Below, piece by piece: positions 40,257 through 44,923 of a stretch of DNA of 52,384 nt. Positions within the stretch are counted from its first letter, which is position 1. The number at the start of each line of letters is the position of its first letter. A program made the position numbers and the translations under genes. The notes under the pieces are model-generated. The model saw nothing but the letters and a program-made list of their open reading frames with translations. It had not been told where the DNA came from and made no database searches. This DNA is from Thermoplasmata archaeon. GTDB lineage: Archaea > Thermoplasmatota > Thermoplasmata > Thermoplasmatales > Thermoplasmataceae. Where the stretch lies: NCBI GenBank assembly GCA_021794355.1, contig JAJYRA010000004.1, positions 1 to 52,384 on the forward strand, written 5' to 3'.

Positions 40257-40662
40257 ACCAATGTCAAAAGTCAGAGTACTTTAAGAGTTTTGTTTATGAT
40301 TTCATTTTAAATACTATTTATTACAATCTTCTCAAATATCAACTCAAGATTTGTTGAAAAGAGCAGTGCACGTTAAAGATAGATAATATTGCCTGAATTC
40401 AAAATTCTATTAGAGAATGAATAAGTTATTTTTCAGTGACTATCGGTAGAGTGTGGTGATAGAGTGGTTACCCCATCTCTTGTATTGCTCTACTATAGTT
40501 AAGACACTGTATGGTTTTAGTTGATTTTTTTCCTTACGGATTTGAGTAACATTATGAGCATTCGTTTGAACTGGGAAATAGTTCTGTTATTACTAAAAGT
40601 AACTATTCTAGGGAGGTTTCAATTTTCAGAATACCAACGACTATTCGACAATATCCAATAGG
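40257..40662. other. gene-poor region ending in an IS remnant
   Basis: About 400 bases between the divergent Usp gene and the exporter operon. The first 260 bases are AT-rich with no gene. The last 140 hold a decayed coding fragment shared with 51.8 kb, listed separately. Confidence 0.5.
40521..40661 (+). pseudogene. decayed mobile-element coding fragment, copy A
   Basis: The frame LIFFLTDLSNIMSIRLNWEIV (shown here by its ends: LIFF ... NWEIV) continues through GRFQFSEYQRLFDNIQ to a stop at 40659. It aligns with copy B at 51.8 kb (LVDFSLLADLTNF, MSIRLNWEIV, FPFSNYQ, CDN), and 31 bases are identical (40552-40582 and 51849-51879). Two eroded copies of one coding sequence imply a dispersed IS. 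The family is not recognised. Confidence 0.55.
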
Positions 40663-40676
40663 AAAAATATTTTATA
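40663..40676 (+). promoter_or_regulatory. TATA box of the five-gene exporter operon
   Basis: aaaatattttatag is centred about 28 nt before the ATG at 40699. A second copy of the core attttatag follows at about 40684-40692. No SD precedes the ATG. Confidence 0.5.
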
Positions 40677-40698
40677 GTATGTTATTTTATAGTCATCA

Positions 40699-41436
40699 AT
40701 GGAATTTGATAATAGAATTGAGAAGGGGCGTTCTCGAGGAAAGTCAGTCTCTAGAATGGAGTCCTCGGTTATCAAAGGAGATAATGAAGAGATAAATGAA
40801 GACTCTAAGAAAACCATCTTTGCATTGTCTATGACAGCGATTTTTCTGGGTTCTATCTTCCTTGGAGCCGGATTTATGGTTCACAGTACACAAGCAAAGG
40901 TAAGTGGAAATGGGTCAAGAAAAATTAATGACATCAATTATGTGACAATACAGGGCAATTACAGTCATACAGATATAAAAGTCCCGCAGATCAATGGTCA
41001 AGGATGGGAATACTTCAAAGCCAGCGTTCACTATTCATATACATTCACAGAAAATTTGAAGTATGGTTCTTCGGCAATTATAAAGACATACAACTTCCTG
41101 AATTTCCCTCCTCCTACTGTCTGCAGCGCATCACAATATGTATCAGCCCATGTTTCTAATTTCAATGGATATACTGGTTTAAAAACCATAGTTACGTACT
41201 ACCAGTCAAATATACGTAAAACTGATATTGTAACAACTCAGGAACTTGGGCTTGCAGGAACAATTTCCATGAGTGGTTGGTTTATTACATCCCTAAACGC
41301 CAATTTAAAAGTAGTAACTGCGGCGGATCCCTATTACAGTTACGTTACAGGTAGCTATACATATTCAAAAACCTATCCAATTTCCAGTCCTTCATTTCCT
41401 GTTAACTTTCCAATTACCATACCCATTGATGGATGA
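40699..41436 (+). CDS. secreted or membrane-anchored beta-rich protein, likely export cargo
   Basis: 245-aa protein. It has a polar N-terminal leader of about 37 residues (with KGRSRGKSVSR), a hydrophobic span TIFALSMTAIFLGSIFLGAG, and a small-residue motif STQA that could be a signal-peptidase site. The outer part of about 180 residues is rich in Tyr, Ser and Thr, beta-stranded, and holds a single Cys (TVCSAS). Repeated short tyrosine motifs appear, such as VHYSYTFT and YYSYVTGSYTYS. I recognise no family. Being first in an operon with an ABC ATPase and permease, it resembles a bacteriocin-like cargo gene (inference). Alternatively it is a surface adhesin. Confidence 0.7.
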   Translation: MEFDNRIEKGRSRGKSVSRMESSVIKGDNEEINEDSKKTIFALSMTAIFLGSIFLGAGFMVHSTQAKVSGNGSRKINDINYVTIQGNYSHTDIKVPQINGQGWEYFKASVHYSYTFTENLKYGSSAIIKTYNFLNFPPPTVCSASQYVSAHVSNFNGYTGLKTIVTYYQSNIRKTDIVTTQELGLAGTISMSGWFITSLNANLKVVTAADPYYSYVTGSYTYSKTYPISSPSFPVNFPITIPIDG

Positions 41437-41457
41437 TGTCAGATTTAAGGTGAAATA

Positions 41458-42423
41458 TTGAATAAAAATATCTTAGTTGCTAGTTTAATCACTCTGGCCT
41501 TCGTGATCATTTCTTTCACACCGGCCATAGTTGTGGGAATTGAGAAAGTTGGACCTGGAGGTAACATTTCCAGTGTAAAAACCCTGAATTACAGAGGAGT
41601 TACCCATGTTAGTATAACATATGTCAATTATAACAGTTCTCAAAAAATAACATGCTCTAAAAGTGTACTTACGAAAAACATAACTTTTAATCTGAATCTT
41701 TTGGATAGAAACGGAAATATTTCCATAAATGGGAATTCATATGGACTTTCAGCTACCGGTATGAAAAACATAATATTTGCAGACAGCCAATCCTTCCCAA
41801 GTGATCCCCTAAATGAAAATATCTCAAGTTATGGTAGAAGCTCCTTTCATATGGTGCATTCCCCCTATGAAAAACCCTTCGGCTACATGAAAACGATTTG
41901 CAATCTTTATTATTCTTCAATTCCATCTTATGCTCTTCCAGTTTTAAATGGGACGGTACTCTCAGCAGGAAGCATAACATCAAGCGTAACCTCCGGCTAC
42001 CTTTTGGGTGGTAAAGCTATGTATGCTGAATGCTCAAGTATAAATCTTATAGGCAATAGATCCTGCTTTGGCACGGATTTCAGCAGACTTTCACCAACTG
42101 AACGGGATCTTGTCGGTCCCACTCTCATATACAAACCCATAATGAATGCCGTAAATTCAACGTACAGTTTTAATATGTATATAACAACTACATATAACTT
42201 GGAATCCTCCAATGCACTGTTTAAAATAAACTTAACATATTACCTTGAGTTTGGAATTCTCACGGGATCAATATTTCTTATTGCAGCGGGTCTCTTTCTT
42301 TACGGCAGACGCAGAAAATGGTCCATTTGGCAATCATCCTTTCTGCCCATTGTTACAATAGTTGTCATGTCATTCTTAATTCTACCTTATACATATATGC
42401 TCTATTTCCCCTATTCGTTGTGA
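41458..42423 (+). CDS. membrane protein with large outer domain, exporter-associated
   Basis: 321-aa protein. The N-terminal helix (about 5-25) is followed by a 240-residue extracytoplasmic domain with many N-x-S/T sequons (NISS, NYNSS, NITFN, NRNGNIS-like) and several cysteines. Two C-terminal helices flank a basic loop GRRRKWS. The start is TTG at 41458 behind a good SD (aggtga, about 4-5 nt spacing). It lies 21 nt after the cargo-like gene and 9 nt before the ATPase, so it belongs to the same operon. The layout recalls accessory proteins of bacteriocin exporters, but no sequence family is recognised. Confidence 0.65.
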   Translation: MNKNILVASLITLAFVIISFTPAIVVGIEKVGPGGNISSVKTLNYRGVTHVSITYVNYNSSQKITCSKSVLTKNITFNLNLLDRNGNISINGNSYGLSATGMKNIIFADSQSFPSDPLNENISSYGRSSFHMVHSPYEKPFGYMKTICNLYYSSIPSYALPVLNGTVLSAGSITSSVTSGYLLGGKAMYAECSSINLIGNRSCFGTDFSRLSPTERDLVGPTLIYKPIMNAVNSTYSFNMYITTTYNLESSNALFKINLTYYLEFGILTGSIFLIAAGLFLYGRRRKWSIWQSSFLPIVTIVVMSFLILPYTYMLYFPYSL

Positions 42424-42432
42424 TGTGGAAGA

Positions 42433-43245
42433 ATGATTGAAATAAACAGCCTCTCAAAAATTTATAAAAACAGCACTGTTTATGAAAACTGCTCCTTTAA
42501 CATACCAGAAGGAAAAACATTGCTGATTGGACCAAATGGTATAGGAAAAACGACTCTTCTATCAATGATTTACGGATACAGAAGGCCCAGTAGTGGAAAC
42601 ATAAAGGTTTTTTCTCTAGATTCCGTGGGAGATATTCAGGAAATAAGGGAAAGAGTTTCCTACATACCAGCCGATGGAAATCTGCCACTCAACCTAAAGT
42701 TTAATGAATTGCTGGAGTACGTGGAATGCTTTGTTGATAGAAAAAAATTGGATCGTTATTTAACCTATTTCGGCATCGAATATCTCCTTAAAAAATACCC
42801 CTCAAATATGTCATCTGGCGAAAGGAAGCTCGCAAGAATTAGCATTGGTTTATCCATGGAAAGAGAGCTTACAATCCTGGATGAACCACTTATAAACATT
42901 GATAAACAGAGAAAAAACCTTCTCGTGAAATTACTGAATCATGAGGTCAGGAATGTTATCATGACAACTCATGAAGATGATTATATCTTTTATGGTAAAT
43001 TTAACATGATAGCAGTTAGAAGAAATATTCAAAAATCCAGGTCAGAACTATATCAATTGGATGAGCGTAAGAATGCCTTCAGCCTGAGAGTGAAAGATGA
43101 AAAGATAGTTGAAGAAATATTGAAAAGATATGATATTGAATTCGAACTTGAAGATGGGAATTTCTTAATCCAGACCATGTCAGAGAATTTAATTGCAGAG
43201 ATCTTTCCGTTCCTTCTAGAATACAGGAGGGTGTTGTTTGAATAG
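42433..43245 (+). CDS. ABC transporter ATPase of the five-gene exporter operon
   Basis: 270-aa ATPase. Walker A is LIGPNGIGKTTLL (about 33-45), the signature is MSSGERKLARI (variant of LSGGQ), Walker B is LTILDEPLINIDK, and the H-loop is MTTHEDD. The last 80 residues form a divergent C-terminal domain. The sequence fits exporter-type (ABC-2) ATPases. Its start is 9 nt after the previous gene, and its end overlaps the permease by 8 nt. Confidence 0.88.
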   Translation: MIEINSLSKIYKNSTVYENCSFNIPEGKTLLIGPNGIGKTTLLSMIYGYRRPSSGNIKVFSLDSVGDIQEIRERVSYIPADGNLPLNLKFNELLEYVECFVDRKKLDRYLTYFGIEYLLKKYPSNMSSGERKLARISIGLSMERELTILDEPLINIDKQRKNLLVKLLNHEVRNVIMTTHEDDYIFYGKFNMIAVRRNIQKSRSELYQLDERKNAFSLRVKDEKIVEEILKRYDIEFELEDGNFLIQTMSENLIAEIFPFLLEYRRVLFE

Positions 43246-43906
43246 AAATAGGGTCAACTACTTAATGTGGGTGTTTAGGTATCTGGCTGGATCGCCCATA
43301 GTAATTTCCCTTTACGCTTTGGTTATGATATTATCGTTTTATACTCCTGCAACTGTCCTAGGAGAACAGGAAGCGTACGTTACAATTTCCTTAATCATAC
43401 TCATATTGTTGATTTATTTCAGTTATCGTTTTTCTGGGATATTTGAGAGAGGTGAAGCATTTTTCTATCTGAATGGACCCGTTACTCTAAACTTTATAAC
43501 ATCCTGTTTCCTGATCAGTGAATTAATATTAATATTGCCGTTCAGCCTATTCACAATTGACAATTCTGGCATATTGCTTTCCAAGGGTTTATTCCTTATG
43601 GAGACTGCATTCATTTTGTTTTACGTCGCACTAACCTTTTTAATTGATGTTGTGTTTAAAAATAGTTACATAGCCACCTTGACAATCCTCGTAGTTTATA
43701 TATTTCCTTTATTCACTTTCAGATTGTTTCTAACTGATACAACAAATGGAATGCCTTTTTTTGCCCTTTCACCTCTTTCAATGACAAGCGTCAACATGGT
43801 GAGTCAAATCAGCGGCCTTTTATTGTGGAGTCTTAGATACATTGTTGTAGTATGGTTCTTACTCATAATTTCAATTAAGTTAAACAACAGGAGGGATGTC
43901 CTGTGA
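43238..43906 (+). CDS. ABC-2-like permease subunit
   Basis: 222-aa integral membrane protein with about six helices (near 12-33, 40-60, 78-102, 110-135, 145-165, 190-213). It starts with TTG behind an aggaggg SD and overlaps the ATPase stop. It lacks strong family motifs, as is common for small ABC-2 permeases; the function is assigned from topology and operon position. Confidence 0.7.
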   Translation: MNRNRVNYLMWVFRYLAGSPIVISLYALVMILSFYTPATVLGEQEAYVTISLIILILLIYFSYRFSGIFERGEAFFYLNGPVTLNFITSCFLISELILILPFSLFTIDNSGILLSKGLFLMETAFILFYVALTFLIDVVFKNSYIATLTILVVYIFPLFTFRLFLTDTTNGMPFFALSPLSMTSVNMVSQISGLLLWSLRYIVVVWFLLIISIKLNNRRDVL

Positions 43907-44325
43907 GAAAAATTTTTCTAATTATTCTCCTATTAATTTCTCTTTCCTTTGGATTACATGGTCTCGCATACAACTCATCAACCCACTACCAGGTTCAAAA
44001 TTCCTGTCGTTATTATACAATAAAAACTGACGAAACCATTAGTTTAACTGTCTTGACAAACAATAGTCATAATTATCAGATTTGTATAAACCACAATTCT
44101 ACAACCCTAATGGGAAATAGAGCCATAACATTGAGAAACCTTAGTGGAACAATTGGAATTAAAACGTTCAGGGGGGCATTTCTTTTAAAAGTTACCATCA
44201 ATAAATCCTCACTTTTGAAGGAACTGTATTTGACACTTGGGTTTTCATTTTCTGCGGTAATAAGCATACCTCTTATATATTCATATTTTAGGGAACAGCC
44301 GAAATCATATTTATCTAAACGATGA
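43903..44325 (+). CDS. small membrane protein ending the exporter operon
   Basis: 140-aa protein with an N-terminal signal-like helix (3-22), an outer domain with sequons (NSST, NNSH, NHNST, NLSG) and two cysteines, and a C-terminal helix (about 105-127). The architecture is a smaller version of the 321-aa protein in the same operon. GTG 43903 overlaps the permease stop by 4 nt and follows an aggaggg SD. No family is recognised. It may be an immunity or chaperone-like factor for the cargo (inference). Confidence 0.6.
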   Translation: MRKIFLIILLLISLSFGLHGLAYNSSTHYQVQNSCRYYTIKTDETISLTVLTNNSHNYQICINHNSTTLMGNRAITLRNLSGTIGIKTFRGAFLLKVTINKSSLLKELYLTLGFSFSAVISIPLIYSYFREQPKSYLSKR

Positions 44326-44443
44326 AATTGTTACAATCAAGAGGGTGGTCTTGGTTTCATGCTCATAAATGATGTTTCATCTTTCATAACAAACAAGTCA
44401 TTAAAAATAGAAAGTGTTTAGTTATCCTTCCTTCTACGGAGGT

Positions 44444-44923
44444 ATGCAATGCCTTATTATTAACAGAGGAAAGATTTTAGGCTTTGAAGATTTTGATGAA
44501 CTCGCTAAGGTACCGTATGATGAAGCTTTTGTTGTAGATATGGATGCTATTGTACATTATCATTTTAATTTCAAACTATACAATGAATTATCCAAATATA
44601 TAGAATTTACCCTTATGGCATATCCCTATAAGGAAAATGATCTCATGGATATTATCATATCCGGGGCATCAAGAGTTGTAATAAATGAAACCCTTGATGA
44701 AAAGACCATAAAGAAATTTATTGAATCAACGGATGAACTCGTTATGAGATGCTCCAATAAAGAAACTGCTCAGATGTTTCATCAGCTTACTGGTAATATG
44801 TATCTTTCTTGCAAGATTTATGATATTCCTGGAGTGTTTTTCTATTATGGACCATTTATGAGTCGGGGTCCTAACGTGATTCCCCTGGAAAACTTCCCCC
44901 AGGAATTGAGAATGGATTGCTGA
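44444..44923 (+). CDS. truncated HisA/HisF-like protein
   Basis: 159-aa protein resembling one part of a TIM-barrel phosphoribosyl isomerase: EAFVVDMDAIVHYHFNFKLY (metal or phosphate strand of HisA-like proteins), DIIISGASRVVINETLD, and a further strand CSNKETAQM. Full HisA has about 240 residues, so half the barrel is missing or reduced. Relatives are the HisA/HisF-related proteins of archaea, whose function is unknown to me. ATG 44444 follows cggaggt immediately; GTG 44414 is an upstream alternative. It lies just before pyrD. Confidence 0.55.
   Translation: MQCLIINRGKILGFEDFDELAKVPYDEAFVVDMDAIVHYHFNFKLYNELSKYIEFTLMAYPYKENDLMDIIISGASRVVINETLDEKTIKKFIESTDELVMRCSNKETAQMFHQLTGNMYLSCKIYDIPGVFFYYGPFMSRGPNVIPLENFPQELRMDC

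Follow-up and report, generated by a model that had tools for sequence, protein, structure and literature searches.

We describe a five-gene cassette (genes A to E) of a Thermoplasmata archaeon which, in the reading that we prefer with a probability of about 0.4, would be a horizontally exchanged unit for antagonism and self-protection: by analogy with known systems, protein A would be exported by Sec, and an ABC complex would protect the producer. Strong evidence from sequence comparisons points to the cassette as a horizontally moving accessory unit that is transferred as a block. It spans positions 40699-44325 of the window, i.e., of the whole stretch of 52,384 nucleotides that was analyzed.

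Organization of the locus

Five open reading frames lie head to tail on the plus strand (Table 1), and a sequence-only reading of this DNA that had placed them there was reproduced in its positions and spacings. A and B are separated by 21 nt and B and C by 9 nt, while C/D and D/E overlap by 8 nt and 4 nt, respectively. One TATA box, at −26 relative to A, precedes the operon, for which that reading had proposed a single promoter. TATA elements were present approximately 25-33 nt upstream of the A start in five further loci examined, the distance in L015 (genome G075) being counted from an ATG further upstream whose frame differs from that of the remainder of A. The position of the TATA box and its similar spacing in the other loci suggest that a single leaderless transcript likely begins at A. 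Among the internal genes, B, D and E each have a Shine-Dalgarno-like motif upstream, and C has none. An Rfam search returned no match.

Table 1. Features of the cassette and its surroundings (window coordinates)
Feature	Position	Strand	Description
Promoter region	40666..40698	+	TATA element at −26 relative to the start codon of A
Gene A	40699..41436	+	245 aa, ATG start; predicted secreted protein
Gene B	41458..42423	+	321 aa, TTG start; membrane protein with external domain
Gene C	42433..43245	+	270 aa, ATG start; ABC ATPase
Gene D	43238..43906	+	222 aa, TTG start; six-span permease-like protein
Gene E	43903..44325	+	140 aa, GTG start; hydrophobic stretch at both ends
Interval from usp (minus strand) to the pre-pyrD gene, containing the cassette	40257..44446		approximately 130-260 bp in six relatives

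Predicted products of the cassette

The hydropathy profile of A shows a 38-residue polar leader, a single hydrophobic span at about residues 40-58 and then an AxA-like site, STQA, all three of which had been noted before. The C-terminal ~180 residues are probably beta-rich. A is thus predicted to be exported by way of a signal peptide whose leader is unusually long; part of this leader (NEDFKRT) is conserved among congeners. Since A begins like a signal peptide, its exit by Sec is more likely than exit through C and D, and an ABC exporter would be unnecessary for this step; the sequence-only reading had assigned the ABC complex that task, which we judge the less likely route.

Searches of A against Pfam, NCBIfam, PHROG and the PDB sequences gave no significant match, in agreement with the earlier impression of a cargo of no recognized family. 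A known S-layer or pilin identity, named beforehand as the outcome that would speak against a bacteriocin-like role, was not among the results, and no Pfam match pointed to an S-layer domain or to a signal peptide of class III. Pilin peptidase cleaves before the hydrophobic span; the AxA-like site of A sits after it, and A therefore does not conform to the archaeal pilin type. AlphaFold2 predictions from three-sequence alignments had mean pLDDT values of 35 for A and 42 for B and gave unusable, uninformative models. A has no recognizable toxin fold. By eye, A looked similar to lactococcin 972 in the motifs GWEY and GWFI and in paired tyrosines, but this similarity was rejected: six A proteins had no match to this family in Pfam or NCBIfam at E ≤ 10, and the profile comparison gave a probability of 0.2%.

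C is identified from its sequence as an ABC ATPase, with a match to ABC_tran (E = 1.1e-21; 78.3 bits versus a cut-off of 25), a Walker A motif (GPNGIGKT), a signature (MSSGE), a Walker B motif (LTILDEP) and an H-loop (TTH). The ABC motifs are kept in all seven C proteins found, with the signature S-S-G-E. C carries a C-terminal extension of ~85 residues, and it matched many curated ABC models, every one far under its cut-off. Hydropathy indicates one N-terminal span, an external domain of ~235 residues and two C-terminal spans in B, six spans in D, whose gene overlaps C, and one span at each end of E with a small external domain between them. D is predicted to act as a permease, and B and E to face outward.

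None of B, D and E had a significant match in Pfam, NCBIfam, PHROG or the PDB sequence families, and D did not match the ABC-2 families. Profile searches of the PDB sequences with A, B and E gave nothing significant, the best hit of the B profile (E = 0.014) covering a 43-residue membrane stretch. Thus, A, B, D and E appear to represent undescribed families in the libraries searched. The proposal that E is a shortened B failed in profile comparison (probability 1.3%), where only the N-terminal hydrophobic stretch aligned; with it falls the argument that E is an immunity copy of B. A relation of A to B or E was likewise rejected.

Conservation of the five genes

An initial search with A yielded relatives at ~30% identity in two congeneric genomes. 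Using a profile of B against 117 genomes of the order, we found seven carriers, five in the genus of the window (G000, G001, G003, G005 and G008) and two in two other genera (G075 and G014), i.e., three genera of one family. Three of the carriers are public metagenome-assembled contigs labeled Thermoplasmata archaeon (JAKAWY010000069.1, JAKAYK010000018.1 and JAKAPZ010000032.1). Five of the 12 species of the window's genus have the cassette. Profiles of A and D recovered the same seven genomes; the A profile additionally hit a short, weakly scoring stretch within a frame of 1126 residues, and the D profile a single weak fragment. A occurred only where B to D were also present. No convincing further carrier was found with B in a sample of 390 genomes of the phylum or with A in 400 genomes of the class. 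The weak matches (those of B across the phylum and the single ones of A and D, with E-values of 0.001-0.01) were short, broken or located in large unrelated frames and were attributed to chance.

The order A-B-C-D-E is kept in every carrier; in G003, A persists just as a remnant. Synteny had been proposed beforehand as a check, and the five genes are indeed conserved together in the seven genomes. In the pair with measurable dS, G003 and G008, dN/dS was ~0.11 for both C and D; for E it was 0.27. The kept order and these low ratios argue that the cassette is a five-gene unit far beyond chance. An arms race in which A evolves faster than its partners was considered and discarded: A was not faster than B, D or E.

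Horizontal movement

The cassette tree conflicts with the species tree. In all five gene trees the window groups with G075, a member of another genus, and G008, G001 and G005 group together; the distance matrices of gene pairs correlate at 0.84-0.96 across A to E. For A, B, C and E, the window is 44-49% identical to G075 versus 25-38% to its congeners, and for D the values are 34% and 27-28%. The flanking genes have the opposite pattern: kdpB of the window is 71-75% identical to that of G008, G005 and G001 and 66% to that of G075, pyrD 66-67% to congeners versus 63%, and usp 51-66% versus 44%. The cassette is also less conserved than its flanking genes, and at every locus its GC content is below that of the flanks, a difference that is clear in five of six relatives.

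The distance from usp to the pre-pyrD gene is ~4.2 kb in the window. In the one-contig assembly of the nearest relative, G009, it is ~260 bp, and in G011, G005, G008, G001 and G075 it is ~130-230 bp, the site being empty in all of them. Four of these six relatives (G005, G008, G001 and G075) hold the cassette at other positions. Shared cassette neighbors, among those tested, were seen for G008 and G003 only. Movement as a block is thus indicated by the tree shared by the five genes, which opposes the pattern of the flanks, and by the empty sites in relatives.

State of gene A in the carriers

The window, G008 and G001 have an intact A. The gene is an open frame in G005, but with arginine at two tryptophans that are conserved in most other copies. 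In the remaining genomes described here, G003, G014 and G075 (three of the seven carriers), it is broken or oddly framed. In G075 (L015:3432-3545), the frame of the leader does not continue into the downstream part, the break falling at an AG repeat, and this may reflect either phase variation or a mistake in the assembly; a start directly upstream of the hydrophobic span would still yield a plain signal peptide. In G014 (L017:7500-7718, minus strand), the span is in a different frame from the leader and the mature part, as if two compensating frameshifts had removed it. In G003 (L016:4807-4950), a frameshift, together with a deletion extending to the start of B, truncates A after its leader. 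C, D and E are open in all seven genomes, except for an assembly gap in D of G005.

These are draft genomes, with a coverage of 2.9x for the G003 contig, and the single-base shifts in A may be sequencing or assembly errors, which would less easily explain the large deletion in G003. A clean loss of the toxin with retention of immunity is not demonstrated by G003, as B of this genome also has one frameshift and the G003 branch has accumulated 29 amino acid changes versus 16 on the G008 branch. The greater number of changes suggests that the G003 cassette may be decaying as a whole. Because of the risk of draft errors and this possible decay, we gave the damage to A little weight.

Comparison with known systems

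In the lcn972-orf2-orf3 cluster of plasmid pBL1, orf2-orf3 have been proposed to form an immunity ABC transporter (PMC4055356). Like this cluster, which lies on a mobile replicon, the cassette is mobile and begins with the gene of a predicted Sec-type secreted protein, followed by those of a membrane protein and an ABC ATPase, with D and E in addition. Beyond the lack of sequence relation of A, the two differ in the mature protein (66 residues versus ~180 for A), the separate permease D, the extra protein E and the archaeal host; to our knowledge, lipid II, the target of the lactococcin, is not made by archaea. C scored 61.4 bits against the model of the lactococcin 972 immunity ATPase, TIGR03608, versus a cut-off of 254.85, in line with general ABC similarity only. 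Judged from these comparisons, the resemblance is one of layout only.

Lantibiotic producers protect themselves with LanFEG and LanI, an ABC complex and an outward-facing binding protein encoded beside the bacteriocin gene. The cassette would similarly combine an ABC complex and outward-facing proteins with the gene of a secreted protein, but B, D and E have no family match. For nisin-type systems, nisI and nisFEG are the immunity genes cited (PMC4055356). C also aligned over nearly the full length of the model of PmtA, from the phenol-soluble modulin exporter PmtABCD (E = 3.4e-19), but at 69 bits versus a cut-off of 350, which is ordinary ABC ATPase similarity; in addition, A is large and has a signal peptide. 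The sulfolobicins SulA and SulB are proteinaceous agents of a thermoacidophilic archaeon that act against close relatives, are patchy among strains and include a truncated copy; they are encoded by a two-gene operon and found with vesicles, with no mention of an ABC complex (PMC3718332, PMC10117752). By description, they share with the cassette the patchiness and a truncated copy, and would share with it an action of proteins against close relatives; they differ from it in having two genes and no described ABC complex rather than five genes that include ABC components.

Possible functions of the cassette

An antagonism cassette could work as follows. A single leaderless promoter would drive a five-gene operon inherited as a block, a step strongly supported by sequence. 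A would be moved across the membrane by Sec through its signal peptide with a long charged leader, and cleavage after the AxA-like site is predicted to free a beta-rich protein of ~180 residues. This protein would attack the membrane or a surface target of close relatives. The ATPase C and the permease D would form an ABC complex that, helped by the outward domains of B and E, captures A and clears the producer's membrane of it. Such a cassette is in keeping with the patchy, mobile distribution and with the observation that A is the gene most often damaged while C, D and E stay open; the lack of a recognizable toxin fold and of faster evolution in A argues against it. The bacteriocin-like character proposed at the outset is thus plausible, with killing and immunity as its inferred parts and export of A through the ABC complex as the less likely route.

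The conserved leader of A and the history that A shares with the transporter genes make a dedicated exporter or surface-assembly role a serious rival. C and D would then recognize the cytoplasmic leader and, with B and E, export or assemble A, which would serve as a structural protein on the surface or outside the cell, such as an adhesin, sheath or aggregation factor, with no killing involved. Accessory surface proteins are plausible in these archaea, as the group is generally regarded as having no rigid cell wall. Yet A starts in the manner of an ordinary signal peptide, the out-of-frame leader of G075 leaves room for a plain one, and a mobile, patchy distribution would be less expected for structural proteins, so that we consider this role somewhat unlikely. 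We see still less reason to think that the ABC complex exports or detoxifies some small molecule or foreign peptide, in which case A would be a partner rather than a cargo and would, like B and E, have a binding or accessory role outside the cytoplasm. The ABC-2-like layout of C and D, the domain-level kinship of C with DrrA/PmtA-type ATPases and the outward-facing domains of B and E are consistent with such a function; that A stands first, is most often lost or damaged and matches no binding protein is not. It is very improbable that the cassette is a remnant or module of a mobile element or virus of a kind not yet known, with A as a surface or superinfection-exclusion protein. Horizontal movement is clear and the insertion sites differ, but we found no terminal repeats or target duplication at the cassette ends, no transposase or integrase among the neighbors seen, no match in phage records or viral contigs and no significant match in PHROG.

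As a kind of system, an antagonism cassette of this form would be a variation on an already known layout. More tentatively than for the general reading, A may represent secreted protein toxins of a new family that come with their own ABC-based self-protection and are exchanged horizontally among Thermoplasmatales-type acidophiles. Known archaeal protein weapons are few, and the literature that we searched describes no such system for Thermoplasmatales; a 2023 study of this order did not find bacteriocin loci in the E-plasma genome searched (PMC10354927). A toxin role, if true, would therefore represent an antagonism system where we found no protein toxin of such a kind described. The compact cassette, its natural empty sites and its conserved partners make archaeal antagonism in acidic communities directly testable. 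Even without a toxin role, four protein families unmatched in databases and a fast-evolving mobile surface system merit naming.

The usp-pyrD interval in other genomes

In G004 (L062:2510-4074), the interval between usp and the pre-pyrD gene is ~1.6 kb and apparently encodes, instead of the five-gene cassette, two small predicted membrane proteins that resemble each other; the interval may be a variable spot. The protein encoded before pyrD (window 44414-44923) is conserved, with ~158-169 residues and a start that is probably the ATG at 44447. It is 81% identical in G009 and ~46-63% in others, and has a sub-threshold Pfam match to CTD9 of ABC-3C systems (17.7 bits versus 27.9).
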